Assembly: GCF_030812675.1 (NCBI RefSeq)
Contig: NZ_JAUSTE010000004.1
Coordinates: 186,001-250,000, forward strand
DNA from: Sinomonas atrocyanea
GTDB lineage: Bacteria; Actinomycetota; Actinomycetes; Actinomycetales; Micrococcaceae
Reading direction: 5' to 3'
DNA: 64,000 nt
Positions within the stretch are counted from its first letter, which is position 1. Every line of letters begins with the position of its first letter. Below the pieces are notes generated by a model. The model was not told the DNA's origin, ran no database searches, and was given only the letters and a program-made list of their open reading frames with translations. Positions 22,724 to 58,460 of the stretch are shown one piece after another. The translations under genes were made by a program, and so were the position numbers.

Positions 22724-22793
22724 CCGCTCCCCCTGGAATGTGTGTGCTCTCTCCACCGGCCCGGGCCCCGAGCCCCGGCGATGTCCCCGGCAC

Positions 22794-22838
22794 AGCCTAG
22801 TGCCTCGCCGTCCGGGCCCGCGATGGGGAGGACTCCCC
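22794..22838 (-). promoter_or_regulatory. moxR operon promoter with a GGGGA-N4-TCCCC palindrome
   Basis: Minus-strand -10-like box TAGGCT at 22799-22794, about 70 bases before the moxR start. The palindrome GGGGA-GGAC-TCCCC (plus-strand reading, 22825-22838), preceded by CGAT, ends 25 bases upstream of the box. It matches the motif and spacing at the WXG100 promoter (6525-6538). Inferred shared activator site for the two ends of the secretion cluster. Confidence 0.5.
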
Positions 22839-22873
22839 CGGCGTCCGGACGCGTGCCGCGGGCGCGCGGCCGG

Positions 22874-39570: not shown

Positions 39571-39762
39571 GGCATCGCTTTCACATGCTGGACCGAGGAT
39601 TGACTTCCGGTCCGGGATTTGAGTACACGCCATCCTATGCCCGCCCCGTCCAGCCAACGGACAATCGGTTCACATGATGAGACGAAACTGAGTCTGCGGT
39701 TCCGGATGCCGGCGGGCACCCCGCCGGGCTCACGCGGGGCGCGCCGCCGGTGAGAGGGAGAT

Positions 39763-39816
39763 GTCACGGCCTGTTAACGGCTCTGGCTGCTGGCCGAAAC
39801 GCCCTGTTCCTAGCGT
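39763..39816 (+). promoter_or_regulatory. narK-nasA-nasB promoter with GlnR-type half-sites
   Basis: Half-sites GTCAC (39763), TTAAC (39774), a weak GGCTG (39785) and GAAAC (39796) fall in exact 11-base steps, the spacing of actinobacterial GlnR boxes (gTnAC-n6-GaAAC). A -10-like TAGCGT lies at 39811-39816, giving a leader of about 40 bases. Supports nitrogen control of nitrate assimilation; GlnR binding is inferred. The rest of the 291-base gap back to 39571 shows no gene. Confidence 0.55.
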
Positions 39817-39861
39817 GGGAGTCAGCCCAGAGAAGCCCACTCCCCCGCCCCAGGAGGACCC

Positions 39862-41319
39862 ATGAGCACCGAATCGACCACCACGCCCGCCCCGGCGCCA
39901 GGAGTCCAGAGCCCGGCAGCCCAGAGCCTGCGGCTCGACGTCCGCCGCGGGCGCTGGATCGAGCACTGGAACCCCGAGGACAGCGCCCAGTGGGAGGCCG
40001 AGGGCCGGGCCGTGGCCCGCAGGAACCTGCGCTGGTCCATCTTCGCCGAGTTCCTCGGCTTCGTCGTCTGGCAGCTGTGGTCCATCGTGGTGGTCTCGCT
40101 GCCCGCGGCGGGGTTCCGCTTCGACACCTCCCAGACGTTCTGGCTGATCTCGATGCCGAGCCTGGTCGGCGCCACCCTCCGCATCCCCTACACGTTCACG
40201 GTCTCCCGCTTCGGCGGCCGCAACTGGACGGTCGTCTCGGCGCTCCTGCTCCTCATCCCCACGCTCGGCCTCGCGGCGTGCGTCGCCACCCCCTCGACGC
40301 CGTTCTGGCTCATGCTCGCCGTGGCCGGCCTGGCCGGGTTCGGCGGCGGCAACTTCGCGAGCTCGATGGCGAACATCACCTTCTTCTTCCCCGCCCGGGA
40401 GAAGGGCTGGGCGCTCGGCCTGAACGCGGCCGGCGGCAACCTCGGCGCGGCGGTCGCCCAGCTCGCCGTCCCGCTCGCGGTGAGCCTGGCCGCGTTCGTG
40501 GCCAGCGGGGCCGCCGCCGCGGGCAAGGCCGGCTCCACGCTCGCCGTCGCGGGGCTCATGTGGGTGCCGCTCATCCTCGTCGCCGCGTTCGGGGCGCTCC
40601 GGCGGATGGACAACCTCGCCCACGCCAAGGGCGACCTCGCCGGATCACTCGCCGCGCTGAGGGAACCGCACCTGTGGGTCGTGTCCCTCCTCTACATCGG
40701 CACGTTCGGCTCGTTCATCGGCTTCGGCGGCGTCTTCCCGAAGCTCATCCACGACATCTTCCCCGCGTACTCGGTCTTCACCGTGAGCGCCGCGGGCGTG
40801 CCGGCGGCGCTCTCCCTCGCCTTCCTGGGCCCCCTCGTCGGCTCCCTGGCCCGCCCCTACGGCGGCAGGCTCGCGGACCGCTTCGGCGGGGCGCGCATCA
40901 CGGTCGCCTCGTTCGCGGTCATGGCCGCGGCGACGATCGCCCTCGTCGCGACGCTCCCGCTCAAGGGCTTCTGGCTCTTCCTCGGCCTGTTCCTCGTGCT
41001 GTTCGCCGCGAGCGGCGTGGGCAACGGGTCCACCTACCGCATGATCCCGGTGATCTTCGCCAGGGCGAGCCGGGCCGCCCGAGGCGGCGCGCCGGCGTCG
41101 CACACCGCCCGCCTCGCCTCCGCCGCCCTCGGCCTCATCTCCGCGGTCGGCGCGTACGGCGGGTTCGTGATCCCCCAGCTGCTGGGCGCGTCGAGTGCCG
41201 CCACCGGCTCCTACGTCCCGGCGTTCCTCGGGTTCGTCGCGGCCTACGCGCTCATGCTCGCCGTGTGCTGGGGCTGCTACCTGCGCCGCGGGTCCCTCGT
41301 GGCCCAGGCCGGCGCATGA
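39862..41319 (+). CDS. narK: Nitrate/nitrite MFS transporter
   Basis: 485-residue MFS carrier for nitrate uptake or nitrate/nitrite exchange. Nitrate-porter signatures are present: GFGGGNFASSMANITFFFPAREKGWALGLNAAGGNLG in helix 5 and the related PYGGRLADRFGGARIT / GVGNGSTYRMIPVIFA region in the second half. About 12 transmembrane helices after a soluble N terminus of 60 residues. AGGAGG sits 4 bases before the ATG. The stop overlaps the nasA start by 4 bases, making transport and reduction one operon. Confidence 0.95.
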   Translation: MSTESTTTPAPAPGVQSPAAQSLRLDVRRGRWIEHWNPEDSAQWEAEGRAVARRNLRWSIFAEFLGFVVWQLWSIVVVSLPAAGFRFDTSQTFWLISMPSLVGATLRIPYTFTVSRFGGRNWTVVSALLLLIPTLGLAACVATPSTPFWLMLAVAGLAGFGGGNFASSMANITFFFPAREKGWALGLNAAGGNLGAAVAQLAVPLAVSLAAFVASGAAAAGKAGSTLAVAGLMWVPLILVAAFGALRRMDNLAHAKGDLAGSLAALREPHLWVVSLLYIGTFGSFIGFGGVFPKLIHDIFPAYSVFTVSAAGVPAALSLAFLGPLVGSLARPYGGRLADRFGGARITVASFAVMAAATIALVATLPLKGFWLFLGLFLVLFAASGVGNGSTYRMIPVIFARASRAARGGAPASHTARLASAALGLISAVGAYGGFVIPQLLGASSAATGSYVPAFLGFVAAYALMLAVCWGCYLRRGSLVAQAGA

Positions 41320-43631
41320 GCCGGACCGCCGCGGCACCGGCCGTCCCGACCCACTGCCCCTACTGCGCGCTGCAGTGCGCCATGTCGCTGAGCTCCCCCG
41401 GACCCGCCGCCACGTCCGCTGTGCCGGAGGTCTCCGGCCGCGACTTCCCCACGAACCGCGGGGGGCTGTGCCGCAAGGGCTGGACCTCCGCGGAGCTGCT
41501 CGCGCACCCGGGGCGGCTCACCGCGCCGCTGATGCGGGCGGACGACGGCGAGCTCCGCCCCGTCAGCTGGGAGGCCGCCCTCGAGCGGGTGGCAGCCGAG
41601 GTGCGGCGGGCGCAGGCCCGGCACGGGAAGGACGCAGTGGGCGTCTTCGGCGGGGGCGGCCTGACCAACGAGAAGGCCTACCTGCTGGGGAAGTTCGCCC
41701 GGATCGCGCTGGGAACCTCGCGGATCGACTACAACGGACGGTTCTGCATGTCCTCGGCCGCGGCCGCGGGCACCCGGGCCTTCGGCCTCGACCGGGGGCT
41801 GCCGTTCCCGGTTGCGGACCTCGCGGGGGCGGACACGGTGCTCCTGCTCGGATCGAACGTGGCCGAGACCATGCCCCCGTTCGTGGCGCACCTCGCCGGG
41901 GCCAGGGCCGCCGGCGGGCTGATCGTCGTCGACCCGCGCCGCACCGCCACCGCGGCGCTCGCGGACGACGGCGCCGGGCTCCACCTCCAGCCGGCCCCGC
42001 ACACCGATCTGGTGCTCCTCCTGGGGCTCGCCCACGTGGTCCTCGCCGAGGGGCTCGCGGCGCACGCCTACCTCGCAGACCGCGCGGCCCGGGGCACCCC
42101 CGGCGAGGGACCGGACGCGCTCGCCCGCTCCGTCGCCCCGTGGTGGCCCGAGCGGGTGCAGGCGGCCACGGGGGTCCCGGCCACCCTGGTCCGCGAGACC
42201 GCCCGGCGGCTCGCCCAGTCGGCCCGGACCGGCTCGTGCTACATCCTCACGGGCCGGGGCGTCGAGCAGCACGCCGACGGCACCGACACGGCGACGGCCG
42301 CCATCAACCTCGCGCTCCTGCTCGGCCTGCCCGGCTCCCGGCGCGGCGGCTACGGCACGCTCACGGGACAGGGCAACGGGCAGGGCGGCCGGGAGCACGG
42401 CCAGAAGGCCGACCAGCTCCCCGGCTACCGCAAGATCACCGACCCCGCCGCCCGGCAGCACGTGGCCCGGGTGTGGGGCGTGCCCGAGGCGAGCATCCCG
42501 GGGCCGGGCCTGCCCGCCGTCGAGCTCCTCGCCTCCCTCGGCAAGCCCGCCTCGGAGGGCCCGGCGGGACAGACGAAGGCGGGCGGCGTGCGCTGCCTGT
42601 TCGTGCACGGGGCCAATCCCGCCGTCTCCGCCCCGGATGCCACCGCCGTGCTGGCCGGGCTGCGGGCGCTGGACTTCCTCGTGGTCTGCGACTTCTTCCT
42701 CTCGGAGACGGCACGCGAGGCGGACGTCGTGCTGCCAGTGCTGCAGTGGGCCGAGGAGGAGGGCACCATGACCAACCTCGAGGGCCGCGTGCTCCGGCGC
42801 CGCCGGGCGACCGCCCCGCCCCCGGGGCCCCGCAGCGAGCTGTGGATCATGCACCGGCTGGGCGCGCTGCTCGGTGCGCCGTCGTCCTTCCCCGAGGACC
42901 CGCGCGAGGTGTTCGAAGAGCTCCGCGCCGCCTCGGCCGGGGGGCCGGCGGACTACTCGGGCATCACCTACGAGCGGCTCGACGCCGGGGAGGCGCTGCA
43001 CTGGCCGTGTCCGGCGGGAGCCCCGGGTGCGGGCCGAGGTCAGGGCAAGGCCCGGCTCTTCCTCGACCGCTTCGCGCACCCTGACGGCCGGGCAAGGATC
43101 GTGCCCGTGCGGCCCAACACCCCCGCGGGCGCCCCCGCCGGGCCTGCCCATCGGCCCGCTCCGGCGCTGTTCCAGCTCGCCACCGGCAGGCTGCTCGAGC
43201 ACTACCAGTCCGGGGCCCAGACCCGGCGCGTCGCCTCGCTCGCGGCAGCGCAGCCGGAGGTCCGCCTGGAGATCCACCCCGCCTCGGCAGCCCGGCTGGG
43301 GATCGCGGACGGCGCGTGGGTCGCCGTCCGCCGCGCCGACGCTGCCGGGTCCGCGGACGCCCGGGGTGCCGGCCCCGAGGTGCGCTGCCGCGCGCAGGTG
43401 ACCGCCGAGGTGCGGCCGGACACCGTGTTCCTCCCGTTCCACTTCCCGGGACCCGGGGCTGCGAACCGGGTCACCGAGCAGCGCACCGATCCGATCTCCG
43501 GCATGCCCGAGTTCAAGACCACGCGCGTGCTCGTGGTGCCCCTCCCCCAGGACCGGACCGGCCCGGTGCCCTCCGTGAGCGGCGCCCTGCCCGCCCTCGT
43601 CCCCGTCCCCTCCAAGGAGGCTCCGCGATGA
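41316..43631 (+). CDS. nasA: Assimilatory nitrate reductase catalytic subunit (molybdopterin)
   Basis: 771-residue bis-MGD enzyme reducing nitrate to nitrite in the cytoplasm. N-terminal [4Fe-4S] ligands Cys14, Cys17, Cys21 and Cys52 (HCPYCALQCAM ... GGLCRKGW); NGRFCMSSA provides the likely Mo-ligating Cys; the C terminus has the molybdopterin dinucleotide-binding fold (LATGRLLEHYQSGAQTRR). No Tat signal, which separates it from periplasmic Nap. ATG at 41316 overlaps the narK stop; its own stop overlaps nasB (ATGA). Electrons probably come from the NasB flavoprotein. Confidence 0.95.
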   Translation: MSRTAAAPAVPTHCPYCALQCAMSLSSPGPAATSAVPEVSGRDFPTNRGGLCRKGWTSAELLAHPGRLTAPLMRADDGELRPVSWEAALERVAAEVRRAQARHGKDAVGVFGGGGLTNEKAYLLGKFARIALGTSRIDYNGRFCMSSAAAAGTRAFGLDRGLPFPVADLAGADTVLLLGSNVAETMPPFVAHLAGARAAGGLIVVDPRRTATAALADDGAGLHLQPAPHTDLVLLLGLAHVVLAEGLAAHAYLADRAARGTPGEGPDALARSVAPWWPERVQAATGVPATLVRETARRLAQSARTGSCYILTGRGVEQHADGTDTATAAINLALLLGLPGSRRGGYGTLTGQGNGQGGREHGQKADQLPGYRKITDPAARQHVARVWGVPEASIPGPGLPAVELLASLGKPASEGPAGQTKAGGVRCLFVHGANPAVSAPDATAVLAGLRALDFLVVCDFFLSETAREADVVLPVLQWAEEEGTMTNLEGRVLRRRRATAPPPGPRSELWIMHRLGALLGAPSSFPEDPREVFEELRAASAGGPADYSGITYERLDAGEALHWPCPAGAPGAGRGQGKARLFLDRFAHPDGRARIVPVRPNTPAGAPAGPAHRPAPALFQLATGRLLEHYQSGAQTRRVASLAAAQPEVRLEIHPASAARLGIADGAWVAVRRADAAGSADARGAGPEVRCRAQVTAEVRPDTVFLPFHFPGPGAANRVTEQRTDPISGMPEFKTTRVLVVPLPQDRTGPVPSVSGALPALVPVPSKEAPR

Positions 43632-46592: not shown

Positions 46593-47087
46593 CTACTCGC
46601 CCACGAGGGTCTCGAGGCCGGCGACCGCCTCTGCAAGGGAGAGGTCCGGGCGTGCGGCGATGTACGGGAAGAGCAGCTCGTTCTCCTTCTTCAGGTGCAG
46701 GGCGAACGCCCGGGCGATCGCCGTGCCGACGGCGGCGGCCCTGGGCCCGTCGCTTCCGCGGAGCTCCTCCACGAGGCCGATGATCGCCTGATGGTCCATG
46801 AGCATGCCCTCCACGAGGAGGCGCGCCTCCTCGGTCTCCCGCGCGGGCCCATACAGGGGGCCCTCCTCGGCCACGGCGTGCGGGATGAGCTCGTCCTCGC
46901 ACCATCCGATCAGGTTCGCCTTCTCGTCGTGGGCCGTCCCGGCGTCGGCGGCTGCGACGGCGGCGACGAGCGCGTCGGCGAGCGCGGTCGCGCGCCGGAG
47001 CATGTGGCCGTGGTGCTCCTCGACCGCGGCGAGGGCCTCGCGGTCGTCCGCGAAGGTGGGGTTGCCGTGGTTCCCGTCGTGTGCCAT
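46593..47087 (-). CDS. Hemerythrin HHE domain-containing protein
   Basis: 164-residue four-helix protein with the di-iron ligand pattern of hemerythrins: VEEHHGHMLRRA, DELIPHAVAEEGPLY, MLMDHQAIIGLVEEL and FALHLKKENELLFPYI supply His and Glu residues. Such proteins sense or bind O2 or NO, or store iron. The ATG at 47087 has GGAGG upstream and gives the more compact protein; a longer frame from 47123 lacks a site. Located between benE and the sel genes with no operon overlap, so a link to either is not shown. Confidence 0.87.
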   Translation of the reverse strand: MAHDGNHGNPTFADDREALAAVEEHHGHMLRRATALADALVAAVAAADAGTAHDEKANLIGWCEDELIPHAVAEEGPLYGPARETEEARLLVEGMLMDHQAIIGLVEELRGSDGPRAAAVGTAIARAFALHLKKENELLFPYIAARPDLSLAEAVAGLETLVGE

Positions 47088-47180
47088 GCGGTCATCCTCC
47101 CGCCGCGGCCGCCGGCCGCTCAAGGGCCGAAGGGCTCGGGATGGGCGGCGGCCCCGACGCTTCCGCGGCTGGCCGGCGGG

Positions 47181-48977
47181 TCAGCGCACCACACTGCGGT
47201 GGCCGGCATCCAGGCGCCTGGTCCATCCGCGCGAATCGAGGTGTTCGAGCAGCGGGACCGCGATCCGGCGGGTGGTCCCGAGGGCCTCACGCGCCTGGCT
47301 CGTGGTGAAGGGCTGCTCCAGGCGCGCCAGGGTCCGCATCGCGAGGGCCGGTGCGGTGGGCAGGAGGACCACGCCGTCGCGGAGCCGCAGCACGCGTCCG
47401 GCACGCTCGGCGGCGGCCAGCTCGCGGGCGCCCAGACCGAGCGCGGCCAGCTCGTCCGCTTCCGGCGCACGGAACGCGTGCGCCGTGAGCCTGCGCTCCA
47501 GCTCGGCGACGGCAGGCCCGATGGGCCCGAGATCGTCGCCGCTCCCCGGAAGCCGGAGGTGCCCGCCGTCCTGTTCCAGGCCCGCGCCGCGGACCAGGGG
47601 TGCAAGGAGCCTCTCATCGGGCAGTGCGAGCAGGTCGCGTGCGGCCCCCATGGAGAGGCCCGGGGCGAGGGGGTCCCGTTCGTGCAGGGCTTCGACGGCG
47701 GCGCGCAGCCGCTGCTGCCAGGCGTCGATGACGGGAGCGTGCACCCACCAGTCGCCGAGGACCCGCACCCCCGAGGGCGCCTGGGCGCCGTGCTCGGACA
47801 GCAGGCCGAGGCGGTGGAGGTGCTGCACCTCCACCGCTCCGCGGGCCGCCACTTCCGCGAGCACGTCCCCGGCGGGATCCATGGCCGCAAGCCGCTGCGC
47901 CCACTGGGCGCCGTCGCCGCGCCGCTGCAGGGGCGGCGGGTCGGCGTCGAGGACGAGGGCGCCGCCCAGCACCGAGCGGCTGCCCGGGTCGCGCAGCACC
48001 AGCCGGTCCCCCAGGACGAGCGGCGCGGGCCTGCTGAGCACGAGCCGCGCATGATCGGGCCCGAACGGACGCAGCCGCGCCGGCACCGAGGCGGTGCCGA
48101 CGTGCACCATGAGCTGCTCCGGCATGTCCGTGCAGGCCACGCCGGTGGTGCGGCGGATGCCCAGGACACCCGTGGTCGGCCACGCTTCGGGGGTGACGAG
48201 TGCGTCCCCGCGGCGGACGTCCGCTGCCGAGACGTCGCGCAGGTTCAGGGCCACCCGGCTGACGGGGCCGACCGAGGTGTACACCGTGTCGCGGCTCTGC
48301 AGGCCACGGACGGTGACGTCCCGCGGACCCGCGTGGCCGAGCAGCTGGAGCCGGTCGCCCTGGGCCAGCGTTCCCGCTCCGAGGGTTCCTGTCACGACCG
48401 TTCCTGACCCGGTGATGGTGAAGGATCGGTCCACCCACAGGCGCACGCGCCCGGTCGTGACGGGCGAGGGAACGCCGGCCAGCACGCCGTCGAGCGCGGC
48501 CTTCAGCTCGTCCAGGCCGCTGCCCTCGACCGCAGACACGGCCACTGCAGGAGCCTCCCGCAGTCCGGTGCCCGCCAGCTCGCTCCGGGTCCGTGCGAGC
48601 ACGTCCCGGACCTGCTGCCCGGACGCCCGGTCCGCCCGGCTGAGGACCACGACGCCGTGCTCGATGCCGAGCGCGGCCACCGCGTCCCGGTGGTCGTCCG
48701 ACTGCGCCTGCCAGCCCTCGTCCGCGGCCACGACGAAGCAGACCACGGGCGCAGGTCCGATGCCCGCGAGCATGTTGCCGAGGAAGCGCTCATGGCCGGG
48801 GACGTCCACGAAGGCGACCTCCTGCCCGGACGGCAGGGTGGTCCAGGCATAGCCCAGGTCAATGGTCAGGCCGCGGCGCCGCTCTTCCTCCCAGCGGTCC
48901 GGCTCCATGCCGGTGAGGGCGCGCACCAGAGTGCTCTTGCCGGAATCCACGTGCCCGGCGGTGGCGACGACGTGCAC
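47181..48977 (-). CDS. selB: Selenocysteine-specific elongation factor
   Basis: 598-residue GTPase that delivers Sec-tRNA(Sec) to UGA codons. G1 GHVDSGKST, switch region RGLTIDLGYAW, G3 DVPGHERF and an unusual G4 LSRAD are in the N-terminal domain. Two EF-Tu-like beta barrels follow, then C-terminal winged-helix repeats (about 380-598) that bind the SECIS hairpin in the mRNA. The start lies 3 bases after the selA stop. Its expected client is the UGA-containing fdhA 7 kb upstream. Confidence 0.95.
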   Translation of the reverse strand: MHVVATAGHVDSGKSTLVRALTGMEPDRWEEERRRGLTIDLGYAWTTLPSGQEVAFVDVPGHERFLGNMLAGIGPAPVVCFVVAADEGWQAQSDDHRDAVAALGIEHGVVVLSRADRASGQQVRDVLARTRSELAGTGLREAPAVAVSAVEGSGLDELKAALDGVLAGVPSPVTTGRVRLWVDRSFTITGSGTVVTGTLGAGTLAQGDRLQLLGHAGPRDVTVRGLQSRDTVYTSVGPVSRVALNLRDVSAADVRRGDALVTPEAWPTTGVLGIRRTTGVACTDMPEQLMVHVGTASVPARLRPFGPDHARLVLSRPAPLVLGDRLVLRDPGSRSVLGGALVLDADPPPLQRRGDGAQWAQRLAAMDPAGDVLAEVAARGAVEVQHLHRLGLLSEHGAQAPSGVRVLGDWWVHAPVIDAWQQRLRAAVEALHERDPLAPGLSMGAARDLLALPDERLLAPLVRGAGLEQDGGHLRLPGSGDDLGPIGPAVAELERRLTAHAFRAPEADELAALGLGARELAAAERAGRVLRLRDGVVLLPTAPALAMRTLARLEQPFTTSQAREALGTTRRIAVPLLEHLDSRGWTRRLDAGHRSVVR

Positions 48978-48980
48978 GCC

Positions 48981-50312
48981 TCAGCCCGCCCGGCCCGCGC
49001 CCGCTGAGGCGAGGGCTGCCAGTGCCTGCCGCACCGCCTCCAGGATCCGGCCGTCGTCCGCTGCGGGGACGCACCGCAGGTCGAGCAGGCAGGCGCCGTC
49101 GTGGACGCGCGGCAGCACGGCGGGCTCGCCGGTCCGCAGGTGGCCTGCGATTCCCTCGGGGAGCCGGAGCGCCCAGCCCGGCAGGGGGAAGCCGGGGGCG
49201 CCGCCCCCGCCCACCCGGCCATCGTGCGGCACCACGGGCACGCCGAGGGCCCCGGCGAGCCGGTCGGTGCGGCGCCGGAGCTCCCCCGGGTCCGCGTGCA
49301 GGGACTGGACCACCGGCGGCGCCTCGCCCGCGACGGTCGCCTCCAACGCGGCGAGGGCGAGCTTGTCGGCCCGGACGGCGCGGGCGAGCGGATGGCGGGA
49401 CAGCCGCTCGATGATCTCCTTGCGGCCCAGCAGCAGGCCCGCCTGGGGGCCGCCGAGCAGCTTGTCGCCGCTGGCGATGACGACGTCGGCCCCGTGGGCC
49501 AGCGCCGTGGCAACATCCGGCTCGCGCGGCAGGTGCGGGTCGGGCGCCAGCAGACCGCTCCCGAGGTCTGCGACGAGGGGGACCCCTTGGGCCGACGTCA
49601 AGGAGCTCAGCTCGTCCAGGCCGACAGCGGAGGTGAATCCGTCGACCCAGAAGTTGCTCGGGTGGATCTTGAGGACGCAGCCCGTGTCGGGACCGAGGGC
49701 GTCCGCGTAGTCGCGCAGGTGGGTCCGGTTGGTCGTGCCCACCTCGTGGAGCGAGGCGCCCGTGGACTCGATCAGGTCCGGCAGCCGGAAGCCTGCACCG
49801 ATCTCCACGAGTTCGCCGCGGCTCAGGATCACTTCGCGGCCGGCGGCGAGGGCCGTGGTGGCCAGGACGAGGGCGGCGGCTCCGTTGTTGACCACGAGCG
49901 CGTCCTCGGCGGCAGGGCATGCGGCGAGCAGCGCGGCGCGGGCCCCGGCGCCGCGCCGGGAGCGGCGGCCGTCTGCAAGGTTCAGTTCCACGTCGACGTA
50001 GCCGCTGGCGGCCACGAGCGCCTCGACCGCAGCAGCGGAGAGGGGCGCGCGGCCGAGGTTGGTGTGGACGATGATCCCGGTGGCGTTCAGCACCGGTCGC
50101 AGGCTGGTCGCCGTGCGCCCGGCGACCGCGGCGAGCACAGCGGCCTCCACGTCGGCGGGGGCGAGTTCGCCGCGCCGCGCCTGGTCCTGGGCGTACCGCA
50201 CGAGGTCGCGGACTACCGCCTCGCTCAGCCGCGTCCGCGCCTCGCGGACGGCCGGAAGCGCCAGCAGGTCGTTCGTGCGCGGTATCAGGCGCCGGGGATC
50301 GACCTGGTCCAC
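48981..50312 (-). CDS. selA: L-seryl-tRNA(Sec) selenium transferase
   Basis: 443-residue PLP enzyme converting Ser-tRNA(Sec) to Sec-tRNA(Sec) with selenophosphate. RRLIPRTNDLLALPAV at the N terminus, VLNATGIIVHTNLGRAPLS, VVNNGAAALVLAT, GTTNRTHLRDY, HPSNFWVDGFTS and the PLP-lysine motif IASGDKLLGGPQAGL are all present. The GTG at 50312 has a GAGGAGG sequence upstream and lies 37 bases downstream of the tRNA-Sec 3' end, so tRNA-Sec, selA and selB may form one transcript. Confidence 0.96.
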   Translation of the reverse strand: MDQVDPRRLIPRTNDLLALPAVREARTRLSEAVVRDLVRYAQDQARRGELAPADVEAAVLAAVAGRTATSLRPVLNATGIIVHTNLGRAPLSAAAVEALVAASGYVDVELNLADGRRSRRGAGARAALLAACPAAEDALVVNNGAAALVLATTALAAGREVILSRGELVEIGAGFRLPDLIESTGASLHEVGTTNRTHLRDYADALGPDTGCVLKIHPSNFWVDGFTSAVGLDELSSLTSAQGVPLVADLGSGLLAPDPHLPREPDVATALAHGADVVIASGDKLLGGPQAGLLLGRKEIIERLSRHPLARAVRADKLALAALEATVAGEAPPVVQSLHADPGELRRRTDRLAGALGVPVVPHDGRVGGGGAPGFPLPGWALRLPEGIAGHLRTGEPAVLPRVHDGACLLDLRCVPAADDGRILEAVRQALAALASAGAGRAG

Positions 50313-50349
50313 AGCCCCTCCTCGTTGCGCGGCATCGCCTGCCACTGGT

Positions 50350-50444
50350 TGGCGGTGGCGGACGGGAATCGAACCCGCCAGGCCGAGATGCTCGGCCTCA
50401 CCGGTTTTGAAGACCGGGGGGCCCACCAGGACCCGGACGCCACC
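50350..50444 (-). tRNA. selC: tRNA-Sec (anticodon UCA)
   Basis: 95 nt including an encoded CCA (50352-50350) and discriminator G. Minus-strand anatomy: acceptor 50444-50437 with 50361-50354, a 6-bp D stem (GGGTCC/GGGCCC) with a 4-base loop, anticodon arm with loop CTTCAAA reading UGA, a long variable arm with 8-bp stem AGGCCGAG/CTCGGCCT, and T arm GCGGG-TTCGATT-CCCGT. The oversized variable arm, 6-bp D stem and UCA anticodon are diagnostic. The eighth acceptor position is a T-C mismatch. Read by SelB at the fdhA UGA. Confidence 0.95.
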
Positions 50445-50451
50445 GCCCACC

Positions 50452-50478
50452 AATGTAGCAGGCACGCGGCGGTAGGCT
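50452..50478. promoter_or_regulatory. Overlapping divergent promoters of tRNA-Sec and selD
   Basis: Only 40 bases separate the tRNA-Sec 5' end (50444) from the selD GTG (50485). The minus strand has TACATT at 50457-50452, 7 bases before the tRNA 5' end. The plus strand has TAGGCT at 50473-50478, 6 bases before selD. The -35 region of each must reach into or across the other's -10, so the two promoters overlap. Confidence 0.6.
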
Positions 50479-50484
50479 GGGCGG

Positions 50485-51510
50485 GTGATTGAGGCCCCGA
50501 CTTCCCTGCCGCAGCCCGACGAGGGCGCCGCCGGTGCGACCCGGCTGACGGGCTATGCCCATGGCGGCGGCTGCGCCTGCAAGATCCCGCCCGGAGAACT
50601 CGAGGACGTGGTCCGCAGCCTCATCGGCCAGCCCGGCGCGGACGTGCTGGTCGGCCTCGACAGTGGCGACGACGCCGCGGCGGTCCTGGTGCACGAGGAC
50701 CTGGCGGTGCTCTCCACCGCCGACTTCTTCACGCCCGTCGTCGACGATGCCTTCGACTGGGGCCGGATTGCGGCGGCCAACGCGCTCTCGGACATCTATG
50801 CGATGGGGGGCCGGCCGATCATGGCGGTCAACCTCGTGGGCTGGCCGCGCGGCGTGCTGCCGCCGGAGCTGATGGCCGAGGTGCTCCGCGGGGGCCTGAG
50901 CGTTGCCGCCGAGGCGGGCTGCCCGGTGATCGGGGGCCATTCGATCGACGATCCGGAGCCGAAGTACGGCATGGCGGTCACCGGCGTCGCGCCTCCCGAC
51001 CGCCTGCTGCGCAACGACGCCGCCGAGCCGGGGCTGCCGATCACGCTGACCAAGCCGATCGGCGTCGGCCTGCTGAACAACCGGCACAAGCAGACCGGCG
51101 AGGTGTTCGCCGAGGCGGTGGCGACGATGGCGGCCCTGAACCGCGACGCGGCCCAAGCCGCGGTGGCGGCCGGCGTGCAGGCGGCCACGGACGTGACGGG
51201 GTTCGGCCTGCTGGGGCACCTGTACAAGATGTGCCGCGCCTCCACAGTGGGCGCGGTGATCGACCTGACCGCGGTGCCGCTCATCGACGGAGCCCGGCAG
51301 GCGCTGCGGGACGGCTTCGTCTCGGGCGGGACGCGGCGCAACCTCGACTGGGTCAGGCCGCACCTCCGGCCCGCGTCCGGGGTCTCCGAGGACGACCTGC
51401 TCCTCCTCGCCGACGCGCAGACGTCCGGGGGCCTGCTCGTGGTCGGCGAGGTGCCCGGATACCCGGTGATCGGCCACACCACCGCGGGCGGCGGCATCGA
51501 GGTCCGCTAG
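50485..51510 (+). CDS. selD: Selenide, water dikinase
   Basis: 341-residue enzyme making selenophosphate from selenide and ATP. The N-terminal catalytic loop LTGYAHGGGCACKIPPGEL carries Cys30, Cys32 and Lys33; the usual Sec/Cys position is Cys, so SelD itself is not a selenoprotein. Downstream TADFFTPVVDDAFDWGRIAAANALSDIYAMGG and DVTGFGLLGH (split by other residues in between) match the AIRS-like ATPase. The GTG follows TAGGCT by 6 bases, a leaderless start. Convergent with nrfD, 14 bases apart. Confidence 0.96.
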   Translation: MIEAPTSLPQPDEGAAGATRLTGYAHGGGCACKIPPGELEDVVRSLIGQPGADVLVGLDSGDDAAAVLVHEDLAVLSTADFFTPVVDDAFDWGRIAAANALSDIYAMGGRPIMAVNLVGWPRGVLPPELMAEVLRGGLSVAAEAGCPVIGGHSIDDPEPKYGMAVTGVAPPDRLLRNDAAEPGLPITLTKPIGVGLLNNRHKQTGEVFAEAVATMAALNRDAAQAAVAAGVQAATDVTGFGLLGHLYKMCRASTVGAVIDLTAVPLIDGARQALRDGFVSGGTRRNLDWVRPHLRPASGVSEDDLLLLADAQTSGGLLVVGEVPGYPVIGHTTAGGGIEVR

Positions 51511-51524
51511 CCCCCGTGGGCAGG

Positions 51525-52613
51525 TCACCCGGCGGTGGTGATCGAATCGTCCGTGATGCCGGCTGCGCGGCGGGCAGCGAGCCGGTTCTTCTGGGGTTCG
51601 ATCGTGTAGCGCGGATCCTTCGCCGAGGACAGGCCTGCCTCGAACACCCCGAACCGGGTCAGGGCGGAGGCTGCCAGCAGCGCCAGGCCCGAGGCCGCCG
51701 CCACCGCACGGCTGCGGCCGGCCAGCAGCGTCCCCAGGCCGCCGGCGACCGCCAGCCGCTCGCTCCACGCCAGCATCGCCCCGGCCTTCCCCTCGTGCAG
51801 GGGTTCGGCTGCGACCGGATCCATCCGGTGCTCCATCACCCGAGTCGCCACCACGTCACCGATCACACCGAGCACGGCGAGCTTCCGGGCGGGAGACGCC
51901 TCCCCCACGGGCGTGGTGACCATGGCGAGCCCGGCGGAGGCGAGGGTCGCCGAACTGACGAAGACGAACGGCAACTCCTGGTGGGCAGCATTCCACGTGG
52001 GCGTGGCGGTGTCGCCGAGCAGGACCGCCGTGTACGCCGCGAGGGGTCCGCCGAAGAACGCGGCCCCGACGCCGGCCGGCCCCTCGACCGCCTGCAGCAC
52101 GGGCCGCAGCGGGCCCAGCGGCAGGCGCTTCCCGGTCATGCGGTCGATCTCGGCCACCGCCGCGACCCCCGCGCCCGCGCTGAACGCGCTGAGGATCCAT
52201 GAGCCGACGCTCATGGGCGAGGTGACCTTGAACGTCCGCAGCATGTGCAGGAATCGCTCCGGCCGGCCCAGATCCTTCACGAGGGCCACGGCACCGACGC
52301 TGACCGCCGCGAGGGCGCCCAGCCGGGCGTTCCGGCGCAGGATCGGCCGTCCGGTCAGCTGGCCGCCGAGGCCCAGCAGCGCGGAGCCGCCGGCGACGCC
52401 GCCGAGGAACAGGTAGGCGGCCACATCGTCGCCCCACGGCGCCGGCTTGACCACCGGACGGCCGTAGTACGAGGTGAACTCCGGCTCCGGGACCATGGGC
52501 ATCTCCCTGGAGCCGTCACCGCCTCCCCGGCGGGCGGAGCCGCGCTTGCCGCCCGGTCGCCGGCGCCGGGCCGGCTCGGGGGGCCTGAAGCTGTCAAAAT
52601 CCGAGTGCGTCAC
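51525..52613 (-). CDS. nrfD: NrfD/PsrC-family membrane subunit of formate dehydrogenase
   Basis: 362-residue membrane protein with about eight transmembrane helices after an Arg/Gly-rich soluble N terminus of 60 residues. YLFLGGVAGGSALLGLGGQL and LVKDLGRPERFLHMLRTFKVTSPMSVGSWILSAF are NrfD hallmarks. It should anchor FdhAB and hand electrons to menaquinone; it carries no heme ligands of the cytochrome b556 (FdnI) type. The GTG at 52613 overlaps the fdhB stop by 4 bases and has GAGGA upstream. Last gene of fdhA-fdhB-nrfD. Confidence 0.88.
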   Translation of the reverse strand: MTHSDFDSFRPPEPARRRRPGGKRGSARRGGGDGSREMPMVPEPEFTSYYGRPVVKPAPWGDDVAAYLFLGGVAGGSALLGLGGQLTGRPILRRNARLGALAAVSVGAVALVKDLGRPERFLHMLRTFKVTSPMSVGSWILSAFSAGAGVAAVAEIDRMTGKRLPLGPLRPVLQAVEGPAGVGAAFFGGPLAAYTAVLLGDTATPTWNAAHQELPFVFVSSATLASAGLAMVTTPVGEASPARKLAVLGVIGDVVATRVMEHRMDPVAAEPLHEGKAGAMLAWSERLAVAGGLGTLLAGRSRAVAAASGLALLAASALTRFGVFEAGLSSAKDPRYTIEPQKNRLAARRAAGITDDSITTAG

Positions 52614-53620
52614 GCACGTCCTCCCAGGAATGCCACGGCGGCGGCGGCCACCATGCCCACCACGGCCATCCCGGCGCGCCGGTACATCTGCGGCAGATCG
52701 GCCGTGGGGACCCTCGGGTCCGGCGGGAGCCCGTAGACCTCGGGCTCGTCGAGCAGCAGGAAGACCGATCCGGTCCCGCCGACGCCGTCGAGCTCGTTCG
52801 CGCCGTAGAGCCTTGCTTCGGTCAGCCCCTGCGCATGCAGGTCGGCGACGCGCTCCCTCGCGGTCTCCACCATGTCGTCGTGGTCGCCGAACTTGATGGA
52901 CGTGGTCGGGCAGGCCTTGGCGCAGGCGGGCGTCTCATCGGCCACGAGGCGGTCGTAGCACAGCGTGCACTTCTGGGCGACGCCGACGTTGGGGACGGCG
53001 GGGTGCGCGGCATGCTGCTCCTCGCGCTGGGCGGCGACCGCGACGGTCCCGTCGCGGCGGCGCTCGATCACGCCGAAGGGGCACCCGGCCACACAGGTCC
53101 CGCAGCCATTGCAGACGTCGTCCTGCACCACCACAGTGCCGAACTCGGTGCGGAAGAGCGCACCGGTCGGACAGACGTCGAGGCAGCCTGCGTGCGTGCA
53201 GTGCTTGCAGACGTCAGAGGACATCAGCCAGCGGAAGTCGGCGGTGTCCGGCGGCGTCGTGTCCGCCGTCGCCAGGTCTGCTGCGGCATCCGCCGCGGCC
53301 GCAGGGGGGCCGATGCGCGGCATGCCCAGGTTGACGAGCGCGCGCCCGGACTCCCGTGCCTCGGCAATGCGCTCCTGGCCCTGCTCGATGAACGCGACGT
53401 GCCGCCAGGTGCTGGCACCCAGCGCTCCCGTGTTGTCGTAGGAGGACCCGAGCAGCTCGAGGTTGCCGTCCTGGGGATTGTGGTTCCACTCCTTGCAGGC
53501 GACCTCGCAGGCCTTGCACCCGATGCAGATCGAGGTGTCGGTGAAGAAGCCCTTGCGCGGATGGCTGTGCTCCCAGTGGGCATCGGCGGTGGGGTCGGTC
53601 GGTCCGGCCAGCTGGCCCAT
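52610..53620 (-). CDS. fdhB: Formate dehydrogenase iron-sulfur subunit
   Basis: 336-residue ferredoxin-like subunit with four [4Fe-4S] cysteine clusters: CIGCKACEVACKEWNH (Cys32, 35, 38, 42), CKHCTHAGCLDVCPTGAL, CNGCGTCVAGCPFGVIE and CTLCYDRLVADETPACAKAC. A possible C-terminal transmembrane helix (RAGMAVVGMVAAAAVAFLGG) could anchor it. Transfers electrons from the FdhA active site to NrfD. GGGAGGA lies before the ATG, which directly follows the fdhA TAG stop. Confidence 0.93.
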   Translation of the reverse strand: MGQLAGPTDPTADAHWEHSHPRKGFFTDTSICIGCKACEVACKEWNHNPQDGNLELLGSSYDNTGALGASTWRHVAFIEQGQERIAEARESGRALVNLGMPRIGPPAAAADAAADLATADTTPPDTADFRWLMSSDVCKHCTHAGCLDVCPTGALFRTEFGTVVVQDDVCNGCGTCVAGCPFGVIERRRDGTVAVAAQREEQHAAHPAVPNVGVAQKCTLCYDRLVADETPACAKACPTTSIKFGDHDDMVETARERVADLHAQGLTEARLYGANELDGVGGTGSVFLLLDEPEVYGLPPDPRVPTADLPQMYRRAGMAVVGMVAAAAVAFLGGRA

Positions 53621-56600
53621 CTAGTCCTCCCTTGTCGGGTCGATGCCTTCGGCGGCCGGGTCGGTGACCGTCTGATTCCCGGTCTCGACCGTTGCCCCGG
53701 CCCTCGCCTGGTACTCGGCGACCAGGGAGAGGAGGTCCGCGCCGCGGGGCCGGCGGCCCGGACGGATGTCGCAGGAGGCGACTTTGGATTCCTGGATCTG
53801 GACGTTCGGATCCAGCGTCACGCCGAGCAGGTCGTTGGCGGCATCGCCGCTCACCACGGCGTTGCTGCCCACGCCCCAGTGGTAGGGCAGCCCGATCTGG
53901 TGCACCGTGTGGCCGCCCACCGTCAGCGGGCTCATCCGTTCAGTGACGATCACCTTCGCCTCGATGGCAGAGCGGGCCGAGATGATCGTTGCCCACCCGT
54001 ACGGCTCGAGTCCTCGCTCCGCGGCCAGCTCCGGGGACACCTCGCAGAACATCTCCGGCTGCAGCTCCGAGAGGTACGGGAGCCAGCGGCTCATCCCGCC
54101 GGCCGTGTGGTGCTCGGTGAGCCGGTATGTGGTGAACACGTACGGGTAGACCTCGGCACCGCTGGTCCCGGCGCTGGGCGCGCTGAGGTTGTCCGGACGC
54201 GGGAACCTCAGCCGCGTGGGGCTCTGCTGCTGCGGGTACAGCGCGTTGGCGACCGGCGACTCCTGGGCCTCGTAGTGCGTGGGCAGGGGCCCGTCCACGA
54301 GGCCGGTGGGTGCGAACAGCCACCCCTTGCCGTCGGACTGCATGATGAAGGGGTCGTCACCGCTGAGGGCGGCCGGGCCGCCGAGGGCCGGATCGGGCTG
54401 GCTGCCCGGCGCCCGGTCCACCGGGAAGTCCGGCACGTCGTCGCCGACCCACCGTCCCTGCTCCTGGTCCCACCAGATGTACTTCTTCCGCTCGCTCCAC
54501 GGCTTGCCGGCCGGGTCCGCGGAGGCGCGGTTGTAGAGGATCCGGCGGTTGGCCGGCCAGGCCCAGCCCCACTCCGGCGCCGCGGGTCCCTGCTCGCGGC
54601 CGGGCTTGCGGTTGGCGGCATGGTTGGTGCCCTCGGCGTACACGCCGGTGTAGATCCAGCAGCCCGCGGCGGTGGATCCGTCGGCGCGCAGCTCTGTGTA
54701 GGACGAGAGGGGCCGGCCTGCCTCGGGCCCGGCCAGCTGACGGCCGTTGATCTCGGCCAGCACGGCCTCCGGGTCGGGATCGCCGTGCTCGTCCGTGGGA
54801 TAGTCCCACGTGAGGTCGAGCAGCGGGCGGTCGCGCTCGTCGTCGGAGCCGGCCAGCTTGGCGCGGATCCGCTGGCCCAGCTCGTAGAAGAACTGCAGCT
54901 CGCTCTGGCATTCCCCGGGCGGCGTGACTGCCTGGTGCCGCCACTGGAGCAGGCGCTGGGTCTGGGTGAACGAGCCCGCCTTCTCCACGTGGGTCGCCGC
55001 CGGAAGGAAGAACACCTCGGTCTCGATGTCCTCGGTGTGCAGCTCCCCGGACTCGATCTCCGGGCCGTCCTTCCACCATGTAGCCGACTCGATGAGGTTC
55101 AGGTCCCGCACCACGAGCCACTTCAGGTGCGACATGCCCAGCCGCTGCAGGCGTCCGTGGGCCGAGCCCACGGCGGGATTCTGCCCGAGGATGAAGTAGC
55201 CCTCCACCTCGTCCTCGAGCATGCTCATCACCGTCTCGTAGGTGCCGTGCGCGCCGGTCAGCCGTGGAAGGTAGTCGTAGGCCCAGTTGTTCTCCGCGGT
55301 CGCGGCGTCTCCCCACCAGGCCTTGAGCAGGCTGATGGTGTAGGCGTCTGCCTCGGCCCAGTACCCCTTCTGCTGCTTTGACGCGATGGCCCCCAGGTAT
55401 TCGCTGAGGGTGTCGTGGCGGCCGGCGCTGGGGACCGGCAGGTACCCGGGCAGGAGGTTGAAGAGCGTCGGGATGTCCGTGGAGCCCTGGATGCTCGCGT
55501 GGCCGCGCAGGGCCATGATGCCGCTGCCGGGACGGCCGACGTTCCCGAGCAGGAGCTGCAGGACCGCGGCGGCGCGGATGAACTGGGCGCCCAGCGAGTG
55601 CTGGGTCCAGCCGACGGCGTAGGCGAAGCACGTGGTCCGCTCGCGTCCCGAGTTCTCGGTGATGGTGCGGGCCAGGTACTCGAAGTCCGCCACGTCCAGG
55701 CCGCACATGTCCTGGACCATCTCCGGCGTGTAGCGGGCGTAGTGCCGCTTGACGATCTGGAAGACGGTCCGCGGGTCCTGGAGGGTGTCGTCGCGCTGGA
55801 CGCGGGCGTGCTCGAGCGAGGGGCCGCCGCTGCCGAACGTGTGGCCGGCGGCGCGCGCCGAGGCGTCGGAGCCGTGCTCCGAGCTGGCGCCGGGCTCGAC
55901 GATCGTGCCGCCCTCTTCTTCGGCATATCCCCACGACGACTTGTCGTACGCCCCGGTCTCGGGGTCGAAGCCTGAGAACAGGCCGCCGAGGTCCTCGGCG
56001 TCGCGGTAGTCCTCGTGGACCAGCGTGGCCGCGTTGGTGTACGCGCTCACGTACTCCTTGAACCAGAGGTCATGGGTGATGACGTAGTTGATGAGCGCGC
56101 CGAGGAGCACCACGTCGGAGCCAGCACGGATCGGCAGGTGCCGGTCCGCGACCGCAGACGTGCGCGTGAAGCGGGGGTCGATGTGGATGACCTTCGCTCC
56201 GCGCGCCTTCGCCTCCGCCACCCACTGGTATCCCACAGGGTGGCACTCGGCCATGTTGGAACCCTGGATGATGATGCAGTCGGCGTTGGCCATGTCCTGC
56301 AGTGACTGCGTCGCGCCACCGCGTCCAAACGAGGCTCCCAAACTGGGAACCGTGGCGGAGTGTCAAATGCGGGCCTGGTTCTCGGTCTGCACCGCCCCGG
56401 CAGCCGTGAACAGCTTCTTGATCAGGTAGTTCTCTTCGTTGTCCAGCGTGGCCCCGCCCAGCGAGGCGATGCCCATGGTGCGGCGCAGCAGCCGGCCTTC
56501 GCTGTCCTGCTGCTGCCAGGTCCTGCGGCGGCTCTCGATGAACCGGTCCGCGATCATGTCGACGGCGGTGTCCAGGTCCAGGCGCTCCCACTCGCTGGAG

Positions 56601-56941
56601 CGGGGCGCGCGGTAGAGGACGCGGGTCTGCCGGCCCGGGGAGTTGACCAGCTGCTCGCTGGCCGAGCCCTTGGGGCACAGGCGGCCGCGCGAGATGGGCG
56701 AATCGGGGTCGCCCTCGATCTGGACGACCTTCTCGTCCTTGACGTAGACCCGCTGCCCGCACCCGACGGCGCAGTAGGGGCAGACGCTCTGCACCACGCG
56801 GTCCGCCGTGGCGGTCCGTGGGGCGATCGCCTTGGTCCGGGGCGACGTGACCGACGGCCCTCGGCCGAGCAGATCACCGGTGCGCATCTGCCGGACGACG
56901 GGCCATTCAAGGAAGCTCCGCGGTGCCATGGTTGCGAGCAT
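53621..56941 (-). CDS. fdhA: Selenocysteine-containing formate dehydrogenase, alpha subunit
   Basis: 1106-residue molybdopterin enzyme oxidising formate to CO2, read through an in-frame UGA (56365-56363) as Sec193. N-terminal [4Fe-4S] ligands Cys54, Cys57, Cys61 and Cys89 (SVCPYCAVGCGQ ... GRLCPKGSA). The Sec context is NQARI-Sec-HSATVPSLGASFGRGG, the same layout as E. coli FdnG/FdoG. Later motifs include YAVGWTQHSLGAQFIRAAAVLQ and the C-terminal pterin-binding domain ending in GVTLDP. A hairpin starts 11 bases after UGA. No twin-arginine signal is seen at the N terminus, unlike FdnG. ATG at 56941; a second at 56929 is possible. Gene-finders would split it at the UGA. Confidence 0.93.
56333..56365 (-). 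promoter_or_regulatory. UGA(Sec) codon and bacterial SECIS hairpin in fdhA
   Basis: TGA at 56365-56363 is followed after 11 bases by a hairpin at 56351-56333: stem GGTTCCC/GGGAGCC (7 bp with one G-U pair) and loop AGTTT containing a G-T step. The 11-base UGA-to-stem distance equals that of E. coli fdhF. It is the expected SelB binding site. Confidence 0.75.
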
Positions 56942-56983
56942 AGCCCACAGGAGGGGGCCAGCGGCAGGACCTCCGCTCCCCCG

Positions 56984-57013
56984 GGTGCGGCGTCGCGGCC
57001 GCGCCGCCGCACC
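56984..57013 (-). terminator. Hairpin between the LpdA-like gene and fdhA
   Basis: GGTGCGGCG (56984-56992) pairs with CGCCGCACC (57005-57013) over 9 bp; the 12-base loop contains the self-complementary GCGGCCGC. It lies 16 bases beyond the LpdA-like stop on the minus strand and upstream of fdhA, separating the two units. No T-tract. Confidence 0.55.
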
Positions 57014-57029
57014 GCCCCCGGGCCCGGGG

Positions 57030-58460
57030 CTACATGTGGACGTGCAGGCGGCGCGCGGCCTCCGACAGCGAGCCGGACAGCGACGGGTAGACCGCGTAGG
57101 TGTTCGCGACGTCGTCCACGTGGAGCTTCTGCTCGACCGCCATCGCGAGGCCGAAGATGAGCTCGGAGGCGTTCGAGCCCATCACGACGGCGCCGATCAC
57201 GGTGCCTGACCCCTTCCGGGAGATGATCTTGACGAACCCGTCGGTCGTGTTGCGCATCTTGGCGCGCGCGTTGCTCTTCAGGCGCAGGGTGACGATGTCG
57301 CCGGCGATCCGGCCGCTCGCGACGTCCGCCTCCGAGGCCCCCACCGAGGCGATCTCGGGCGAGGTGAAGATGTTCGAGGCGACGTGGTTGAGGTTCAGCG
57401 GCGTCACCTGGTCGCCGAGGATGTGGGCGACCGCGATCCGGCCCTGCATGGCCGCGACGGAGGCCAGGGCGAGGACCCCCGTGCAGTCGCCGGCCGCGTA
57501 GACGCTGGTCGCGGAGGTGCGGGAGACGCCGTCGACCTTGATGTGCCCGCTCTCGCTGACGGCGACGCCGGCCTGCTCGAGCCCGATCCCGTCCGTGTTG
57601 GGAATGGAGCCGACGCAGAGGAGGCAGTGCGAGCCGGTCACCTTCGTGCCGTCGCCGAGAGTGACGACGACGCCGTCCTCCGTGCGCTCGACGGCCTCCG
57701 CCCGCGACCGCGAGAGCACCCGCACGCCGCGCCGTGTGAAGACCGTCTCGAGCAGCTCGGCGGCGTCCGTGTCGGACCCGGGGAGGACCCGGTCGCGGGA
57801 GGAGATCAGCGTGACCTTGCAGCCGAGGCCGTTGTAGGCCGAGGCGAACTCGGCACCCGTCACACCCGAGCCGACCACGATCAGCTCCTCCGGGAGCTCC
57901 TCGAGGCTGTAGATCTGGGCCCAGTTGAGGATCCGTTCGCCGTCCGGCCGCGCGGTGGGGAGCTCGCGCGGGTGCGCGCCCACGGCGAGGATCACGGCGT
58001 CGGCCTCGATCCGCTCGGTGCCGTCCACCGTGACCACCTCGATCACGCTGCCGTCCACGAGGCGCCCCGAGCCGAGCACGACCCGGACGCCCTGCGCCTC
58101 GAGGCCGGCGCGGATGTCCTCCGACTGCTGGCGGGCGAGGCCCAGGAGCCGGTCGTTGACGATGCGCAGGTCCGCCCGGAGGTCCGAGCGCTTGAGCGAG
58201 TCCCCCGTGCCGGAGGCCAGGCGCAGCCCGAGAGCCGCCGAGGCCTCCTCGACCCGGGTCATGAGGTCGGACGTCGCGATGAGCGTCTTGGAGGGCACCA
58301 CGTCGGTGAGCACTGCGGAGCCGCCGAGCCCGGCGCGCTCCACGATCGTGACCCGGGCACCGAGCGACGCCGCGACCGACGCCGCCTCGTAGCCGCCGGG
58401 TCCGCCGCCGAGGATAGCAATGTGGGGGGCCGCGAAGTCAGGGTTCATCGTCACGGACAT
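57030..58460 (-). CDS. lpdA: LpdA-like NAD(P)H-quinone dehydrogenase (pyridine nucleotide-disulfide oxidoreductase fold)
   Basis: About 476 residues. FAD site HIAILGGGPGGYEAASVA, NAD site ELIVVGSGVTGAEFASAY, VYAAGDCTGVLALASVA and the dimerisation domain are those of dihydrolipoamide dehydrogenases. The redox-active CxxxxC is missing: the segment reads GLGGSAVLTDVVPSKTLIA. This is the pattern of mycobacterial LpdA (Rv3303c), a quinone reductase. Start uncertain: ATG 58460 is given, with GTG 58454 and ATG 58448 as alternatives, and a CACAAT box lies just upstream. Divergent from pnp with 82 bases between. Confidence 0.87.
   Translation of the reverse strand: MSVTMNPDFAAPHIAILGGGPGGYEAASVAASLGARVTIVERAGLGGSAVLTDVVPSKTLIATSDLMTRVEEASAALGLRLASGTGDSLKRSDLRADLRIVNDRLLGLARQQSEDIRAGLEAQGVRVVLGSGRLVDGSVIEVVTVDGTERIEADAVILAVGAHPRELPTARPDGERILNWAQIYSLEELPEELIVVGSGVTGAEFASAYNGLGCKVTLISSRDRVLPGSDTDAAELLETVFTRRGVRVLSRSRAEAVERTEDGVVVTLGDGTKVTGSHCLLCVGSIPNTDGIGLEQAGVAVSESGHIKVDGVSRTSATSVYAAGDCTGVLALASVAAMQGRIAVAHILGDQVTPLNLNHVASNIFTSPEIASVGASEADVASGRIAGDIVTLRLKSNARAKMRNTTDGFVKIISRKGSGTVIGAVVMGSNASELIFGLAMAVEQKLHVDDVANTYAVYPSLSGSLSEAARRLHVHM

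Follow-up and report, generated by a model that had tools for sequence, protein, structure and literature searches.

A selenocysteine-decoding gene block and its client formate dehydrogenase in Sinomonas atrocyanea

Transfer of the selenocysteine (Sec) decoding trait between bacteria has been described as requiring that the sel genes be clustered and accompanied by a gene for a selenoprotein, most commonly fdhA, which encodes the alpha subunit of a formate dehydrogenase (FDH) (Zhang et al., 2006; PMC1794560). Table 2 of a later survey lists transfers of the trait into two Arthrobacter strains, and its passages on gene order place sel genes near fdhA, with selD and fdhA also often close (Peng et al., 2016; PMC5029168). 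The locus described here lies in the soil-type actinobacterium Sinomonas atrocyanea, within a stretch of 64,000 nucleotides (hereafter the window) on contig C4 of a genome of 4.12 Mb in 32 contigs, where selB, selA, a tRNA-Sec gene, selD and an FDH operon occupy positions 47181-56941. As in the clusters of Zhang et al. (2006) and Peng et al. (2016), selA, selB and tRNA-Sec accompany fdhA as the sole detected client, and transfer of the whole trait is proposed. Unlike those cases, which the relevant passages of the two papers argue from trees and from presence and absence, the window block has an insertion site and a block-free state in sister species. The locus is probably (at about 0.8) a complete Sec-decoding cassette with one detected client, a membrane-linked actinobacterial FDH, that forms a portable unit of ~9.9 kb in this genus.

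Two other actinobacterial loci are close in content. Brevibacterium luteolum 26C has a predicted genomic island, number 8 (43 kb), whose gene list includes fdhA, selD, selA and selB (PMC12467314, Table 5). In contrast to the window block, that island is defined by prediction, holds many other genes and is given no insertion site in the passages that concern it (PMC12467314). In Actinomycetospora chiangmaiensis a related cluster, FDH1, has been tied to measured selenium-dependent formate removal (PMC7176365). It resembles the window block in joining an actinobacterial Sec-type fdhA-fdhB-fdhC set to selA and selB, but the parts of that report dealing with the cluster list selD apart from FDH1, list a permease gene and give no selenium-independent FDH (PMC7176365). 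In the window genome selD lies inside the block and an FDH operon of the cysteine (Cys) type is found elsewhere. Genomes that encode an enzyme in both a Sec and a Cys form are known from Acetobacterium woodii and from Treponema primitia (Matson et al., 2010), both as told in passages of PMC6288185. In T. primitia the Cys form is reported to decrease when selenium is supplied. Those pairs are of the FdhF type, come from anaerobes and are 80% identical in A. woodii (PMC6288185), whereas the pair in the window genome is of the NrfD-like-subunit type, comes from an actinobacterium, is 64% identical and has separate ancestry. Both FDH alpha subunits of the window genome score above the cut-off of NCBIfam NF041513, a family that mixes Sec and Cys members.

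Earlier publications already describe co-transfer of sel genes with fdhA, a predicted genomic island that contains genes of this set, and pairs of Sec and Cys FDHs. What is added here is a view of the block at the level of its junctions within one genus, together with the presence, in the same genome, of a Cys isozyme that was acquired separately. Among the open-licence papers searched, none names both Sinomonas and selenocysteine. Gain and loss of the 21st amino acid have mostly been argued from trees across distant species. In Sinomonas four states of FDH and block stand side by side with readable junctions, and with this genus one can test directly if the block is by itself sufficient for the trait, what it costs, and how the Sec and Cys enzymes share the work under changing selenium.

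The decoding genes, the fdhA codon and its hairpin

The bacterial Sec-decoding set is complete at the locus, with SelA, SelB, SelD and a tRNA-Sec that carries a UCA anticodon. On the minus strand lie selB, for the Sec-specific elongation factor (47181-48977; TIGR00475, 271.4 bits vs a cut-off of 242.25), selA, for L-seryl-tRNA(Sec) selenium transferase (48981-50312; TIGR00474, 412.2 bits vs 267.9), and the tRNA-Sec gene, selC, called by ARAGORN at 50350-50444 and by Rfam RF01852 at 50354-50444 (80.2 bits vs 47). By-eye reading of the sequence places the most likely start of selA at a GTG (50312) that follows the tRNA gene and a purine-rich stretch. The selenophosphate synthetase gene selD (50485-51510, plus strand) is named from its AIRS and AIRS_C domains and its fixed place in the cluster, kept in 8/8 other blocks compared; it sits between the NrfD gene and tRNA-Sec, divergent from selC-selA-selB and convergent with the fdh operon. 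A minus-strand frame at 50398-51768 was rejected as selD, being on the wrong strand and matching no profile.

The fdh operon, on the minus strand, consists of fdhA (53621-56929, read through its internal UGA), fdhB for the iron-sulfur subunit (52610-53620; best NCBIfam match TIGR01582, FDH-beta, 165.3 bits, under its cut-off of 334.7) and a gene for an NrfD-type membrane subunit (51525-52613; PF03916, 59.4 bits vs 25.8). These six protein genes and one tRNA, with short gaps, make up the content of the block, whose approximate extent, 47139-57019, was set by homology to 12 block-free sites. The profile, ARAGORN and Rfam matches bear out the placing, in the first-pass annotation, of the sel genes and an FDH operon within 10 kb, as well as its reading of the third subunit as NrfD and not cytochrome b. 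Its statement that all genes needed for the trait are present holds for selA, selB, selD and tRNA-Sec; "all" was too strong, as the genes identified in the block include none for seryl-tRNA synthetase, for FdhD or for molybdenum-cofactor synthesis (no search for these was made elsewhere).

The open frame of fdhA (53621-56941) contains a single internal stop, the TGA at 56363-56365 on the minus strand, read as NQARI-U-HSATVPSLG; the codon is residue 193 counted from 56941 and residue 189 from 56929. A break by one UGA between NQARI and HSATVPSLG had been proposed, and both parts indeed match NF041513 (formate_DH_Act), with 1571 bits for the C-terminal part and 334 bits for the N-terminal one, while fdhA read across the TGA reaches 1943.1 bits against a cut-off of 1400. 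The concern that a sequencing error might lie at 56363-56365 has been checked against relatives: the same codon is a stop in 49/85 rows of an FdhA tree (48 UGA, one UAG), so neither chance nor sequencing error explains it. The residue aligned to the in-frame UGA in a paralogue of the same genome is Cys. A genome search for other UGA-interrupted homologues gave eight molybdopterin-oxidoreductase matches at six places, among which only the match in the window fdhA contains the TGA.

Downstream of the codon lies a hairpin of the selenocysteine insertion sequence (SECIS) type, with a 7-bp stem and a 5-nt loop (56333-56351, minus strand), that begins 11 bases after the UGA and is under constraint. 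Covariation was assessed in 36 distinct sequences hand-chosen from 61, the 25 other distinct ones being left out. In this set 95.2% of 252 cells are paired, with two-sided changes at three pairs (15 cells). None of 500 shuffles matches the observed number of paired cells, of cells with two-sided changes or the covariation score; 5/500 reach the observed count of pairs with two-sided changes, and 1/500 that of further pair types. Three of the seven pairs are invariant and therefore uninformative on covariation, and the outermost pair is broken in 8/36 sequences. When all distinct 48-base rows are considered, seven pairs are possible in 43/65 Sec rows and six in the remaining 22; in the Cys rows, seven are possible in 0/58, six in 3 and two to five in the rest. 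A model of the hairpin, for which 150 of 4629 first-look candidates were scored, reports a single match across the genome within an E limit of 1, at fdhA, so that one client was detected (other SECIS types were not sought).

The markers of the trait are linked. In a family set of 197 genomes drawn from a larger group, with marker sets compared by hand, tRNA-Sec above 70 bits and SelA above its cut-off occur in an identical 53/197. Four further genomes reach the tRNA-Sec gathering score (47.5 to 48.5 bits) without SelA, and weaker matches to the model occur in all 197, as other tRNAs give in control genomes. By hand count, 52 of the 53 marker-positive genomes encode a member of NF041513 with a single TGA; the remaining one (G125) has FDH pieces only, from which the UGA region is absent. 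Against this rule of co-occurrence stand three genomes (G021, G148 and G167) with a UGA-type FDH and neither SelA nor tRNA-Sec above 70 bits, all of them drafts in which the FDH match begins within 1.5 kb of the contig's first base. Within the genus, SelA is found in 8/15 genomes, the same eight that have the UGA-type FDH.

Could the UGA be a true stop, and the locus a pseudogene or a split gene pair? Such a reading is scarcely credible given that several families have rows with a stop at this codon, that the hairpin shows paired change, and that tRNA-Sec above 70 bits and SelA above its cut-off occur in the same 53 genomes.

Clustering was surveyed at 100 further FDH loci, of which 80 were named (the best of a longer list obtained with the Cys protein as query) and 20 were hand-picked from a class search; ~8 kb of flank was compared per side, with less available for 17/63 UGA/UAG-type loci, and two rows (L139 and L146) were excluded from the Sec/Cys counts as the motif search had matched another place. 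At least one sel gene lies in the flanks of 48/63 UGA/UAG-type fdhA loci vs 0/35 Cys-type loci, so clustering of sel genes with fdhA is common in the phylum and not particular to the window genome.

Two side observations concern the codon. At locus L217 (G585), with fdhA on the minus strand, TAG replaces TGA at the Sec position, with a similarly shaped hairpin after it; ARAGORN found no tRNA-Sec in 20 kb at that locus. UAG-coded Sec is known from Geodermatophilaceae, as described in passages of PMC5330540. In six genomes of genus code g21 (G110, G155, G049, G093, G140 and G073) the FDH match is interrupted near profile positions 336-375 although both pieces share one frame, the stretch between being divergent or changed.

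Insertion sites and block trees

Has the block moved as a unit, as the first-pass annotation suggested it could? In the window genome (G000) and two others (G104 and G162) the flanks of the block are homologous on both sides, from a hemerythrin-like gene (46593-47087, minus strand; PF01814) to an NAD(P)H-quinone dehydrogenase gene, here called qor (57030-58430, minus strand; NF005883, 691.9 bits), which is present in 15/15 genomes of the genus. In 12/12 other genomes of the genus this site is block-free and its flanks are colinear; five of these genomes carry the block elsewhere and seven do not. Homology of the block-free sites to the window breaks off on the left at 46972-47138 and is regained on the right at 57020-57032, nine of the site junctions having been inspected, and the hemerythrin-like gene and qor are 71 to 198 bases apart in 9/12. 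No block genes or block DNA were found between the two genes in 12/12 (tblastn at E 1e-3, blastn at 1e-5). A second site, between thiolase and CbiQ-like genes, holds the block in G121 and G037, and in the other 13 genomes these two genes are 22 to 246 bases apart. The flanks of the three remaining blocks (G175, G186 and G200) have no match of at least 150 bases to those of other blocks within the 3-7 kb compared, which makes at least five kinds of flank among the eight block-carrying Sinomonas genomes. In the wider locus set the only match is that of a ferredoxin-reductase-like stretch of the G200 flank to a contig of G186. By-eye comparison of nine blocks shows that their homology starts shortly upstream of a TATGCT element and ends at about the selB stop codon. 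A comparison among close relatives, called for by the first-pass annotation, thus finds the block at one site in three species and that site block-free in 12 others, and movement as a unit gains direct support from the colinear block-free sites, the kinds of flank and conflicts between trees in two lineages.

The trees were compared with rpoB alone representing the species tree. The rpoB tree unites G186 with G200 (100/99) and the members of genus code g9 (100/100). An alignment of the six block genes from 17 genomes instead groups G175 with G200, G121 with G037, and G009 (g9) with G078, of another genus code, each at 100/100. Approximately unbiased (AU) tests on the block reject G186+G200 (p 2.3e-5), G175+G186+G200 (p 0.0037) and a single g9 (p 7.3e-78). 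Distances are likewise discordant: between G186 and G200 the difference is 2.9% for rpoB and 8.3% for qor vs 20.5% for selA, and between G175 and G200 it is 13.8% for qor vs 9.1% for selA and 7.3% for the Sec fdhA. The AU tests and these distances, discordant with rpoB, support inter-lineage transfer of some blocks as the likely history, and at least some of the differences in block position would reflect it. The grouping of the G009 and G078 blocks (L284 and L288) across two genus codes points to a likely transfer between genera.

Several observations weigh against a mobile block. At the window's site G121, G150 and G199 have 1.2 to 1.4 kb of other sequence, and the block-free state was compared for two block positions. 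No integrase or transposase is among the six protein genes and one tRNA of the block, and no target or terminal repeats were seen at the window block by eye, the only inspection made. The GC content of the block is 72.9% vs 73.8 and 73.9% in the flanks, so that composition gives no sign of recent import and was rejected as a mark of it. The eight Sinomonas blocks fall together in the best tree, with weak support (32/68), and their single origin is not rejected; nor is a block clade of G000, G104, G162, G121 and G037 (p 0.253), and translocation within one genome could also account for the window's own lineage. Among the three blocks at the window's site, finally, selA differs by 12-15% and qor by 4.5-5.6%, a disparity at a common site which means that the distances are blurred, either by rapid evolution of these genes or by further exchange.

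These points bear on a history in which the block is ancestral to Sinomonas and vertically inherited, its varied places arising from chromosome rearrangement together with repeated precise losses. A single origin of the eight blocks, the GC match to the flanks and the acceptable grouping of the window's lineage with G121 and G037 would all suit it. We nevertheless regard it as unlikely, as the window site is colinear and without block or remnant in 12/12 others, the block rejects both G186+G200 and the unity of g9, and the distances are discordant. For the window block itself, insertion is supported by the comparison of sites; the trees show no conflict for its own lineage.

The surroundings of other blocks provided further observations. 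Near the G200 Sec block (L203/L300) a 1,434-base segment matches, at 98.7% identity, a ferredoxin-reductase-like gene located at 915 kb in the same genome; this near-duplicate of 1.4 kb contains only the ferredoxin-reductase-like gene. Upstream of the G175 Sec block (L301:13714-15743) lies an IS21-type transposase gene (136 bits, under the cut-off of 160), beside a gene that presumably encodes an IstB-like protein. Two loci of different genus codes, L206 (G018):1672-3132 and L289 (G152):2174-3643, have in common a 1.5 kb stretch, 69% identical and about equally far upstream of their Sec blocks, possibly a shared site or a shared passenger.

A cysteine-type formate dehydrogenase in the same genome

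Contig C5 of the window genome encodes at 21494-24679 a full-length FDH alpha subunit whose codon at the Sec position is TGC; a separate set of fdhB and NrfD-type genes comes after it. This protein has 64% identity to the Sec enzyme and scores 2001 bits against NF041513. The operon, which the first-pass annotation had overlooked, probably provides a selenium-independent isozyme, to judge from its sequence, and it weakens the idea that formate oxidation in this organism depends on the sel genes.

Where did the Cys enzyme come from? In the FdhA tree (85 hand-chosen rows, a quick tree under LG+G4, midpoint root) the 36 Cys rows are united in a single clade (SH-aLRT 99) that spans several families, and all 49 Sec rows lie on the other side. 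The single clade of Cys rows means that one residue change suffices to account for them. The Sinomonas and Arthrobacter copies, nested within it, were most likely acquired and not derived from the local Sec gene; an origin by local duplication and Sec-to-Cys change was considered, and this tree argues against it.

The 15 genomes of the genus comprise six with block and Cys type, two with the block alone, five with the Cys type alone and two with neither. It might be supposed that the Cys-type FDH arose in the genus by duplication of the Sec type and is now replacing it, the sel block being on its way out, and the five genomes with the Cys type only and no SelA would be expected under such a course. 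It is very unlikely: the 36 Cys rows span several families within a single clade, those of Sinomonas share 63-64% identity with the window Sec enzyme, and the Cys-type operon is found in 6/8 block carriers vs 5/7 other genomes, so that neither type predicts the absence of the other and there is no sign of either replacing the other. The related idea of the Cys enzyme as a substitute that frees the sel genes to go was dropped for the same lack of association.

A more specific picture of the portable block can be offered tentatively. It may be a minimal cassette for expansion of the genetic code, ~9.9 kb in length, that unites the sel genes with a client for which they are worth keeping, runs from a promoter-like element of that client to about the selB stop without transposase or integrase and has settled at at least five sites in eight sister species, with a separately acquired Cys isozyme perhaps covering selenium-free times.

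The site of the Cys-type operon is shared. In all 11 Sinomonas carriers it lies a few kb from the thiolase/CbiQ-like site, beside an ABC-F gene. A recQ match stands beside the operon site in nine genomes of the genus and was not found in the stretch compared in six (G084, G150, G197, G198, G006 and G199; loci L187-L197, L204, L205, L292 and L293). The seven recQ-bearing Cys carriers group together in the FdhA tree, which hints at swaps of the whole stretch.

Start, enzyme type and proposed function of FdhA

By-eye reading makes the ATG at 56929 the most likely start of fdhA, and not that at 56941, because the latter falls within a conserved TATGCT element (56937-56942, minus strand). This -10-like element, read by eye in nine upstream sequences, lies 7 nt upstream of the fdhA ATG and near the edge of homology between blocks. 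It may be a promoter element of fdhA, in which case its spacing to the ATG would make a leaderless start likely.

FDH-N enzymes of the FdnGHI type have a twin-arginine translocation (Tat) signal peptide with a hydrophobic segment and a cytochrome b gamma subunit. The window enzyme differs in both respects: no hydrophobic stretch is seen by eye in the FdhA N-terminus, MAPRSFLEWPVVRQMRTGDLLGRG, on which no signal-peptide program was run, and the third subunit matches NrfD models only (PF03916). Against the FDH-N model TIGR01553 (cut-off 814.2) fdhA, scored as two halves, reaches 750.5 and 140.8 bits, and the Cys paralogue 933.3 bits. FdhB has a single C-terminal hydrophobic segment (residues 316-334, by hydropathy).

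From the families to which the proteins belong, SelD would make selenophosphate, SelA would convert Ser-tRNA-Sec to Sec-tRNA-Sec, and SelB would deliver the latter to the fdhA UGA, marked by the downstream hairpin, where we infer that Sec is inserted. FdhA would then oxidize formate, probably on the cytoplasmic side, and electrons would pass from FdhA through FdhB and the NrfD-type subunit to the quinone pool. The lack of a hydrophobic leader and the presence of an NrfD-type subunit together suggest this arrangement, with a cytoplasmic active site feeding the quinone pool.

Two minor observations remain. The FdhA N-terminus at L204 (G121), MARRSFLEWPVVRQ, is twin-arginine-like with no hydrophobic stretch after it, and is possibly a remnant. 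In the window itself a second molybdopterin oxidoreductase, with no internal stop, is encoded at 39750-43631, ~3.5 kb past selB on the opposite strand.

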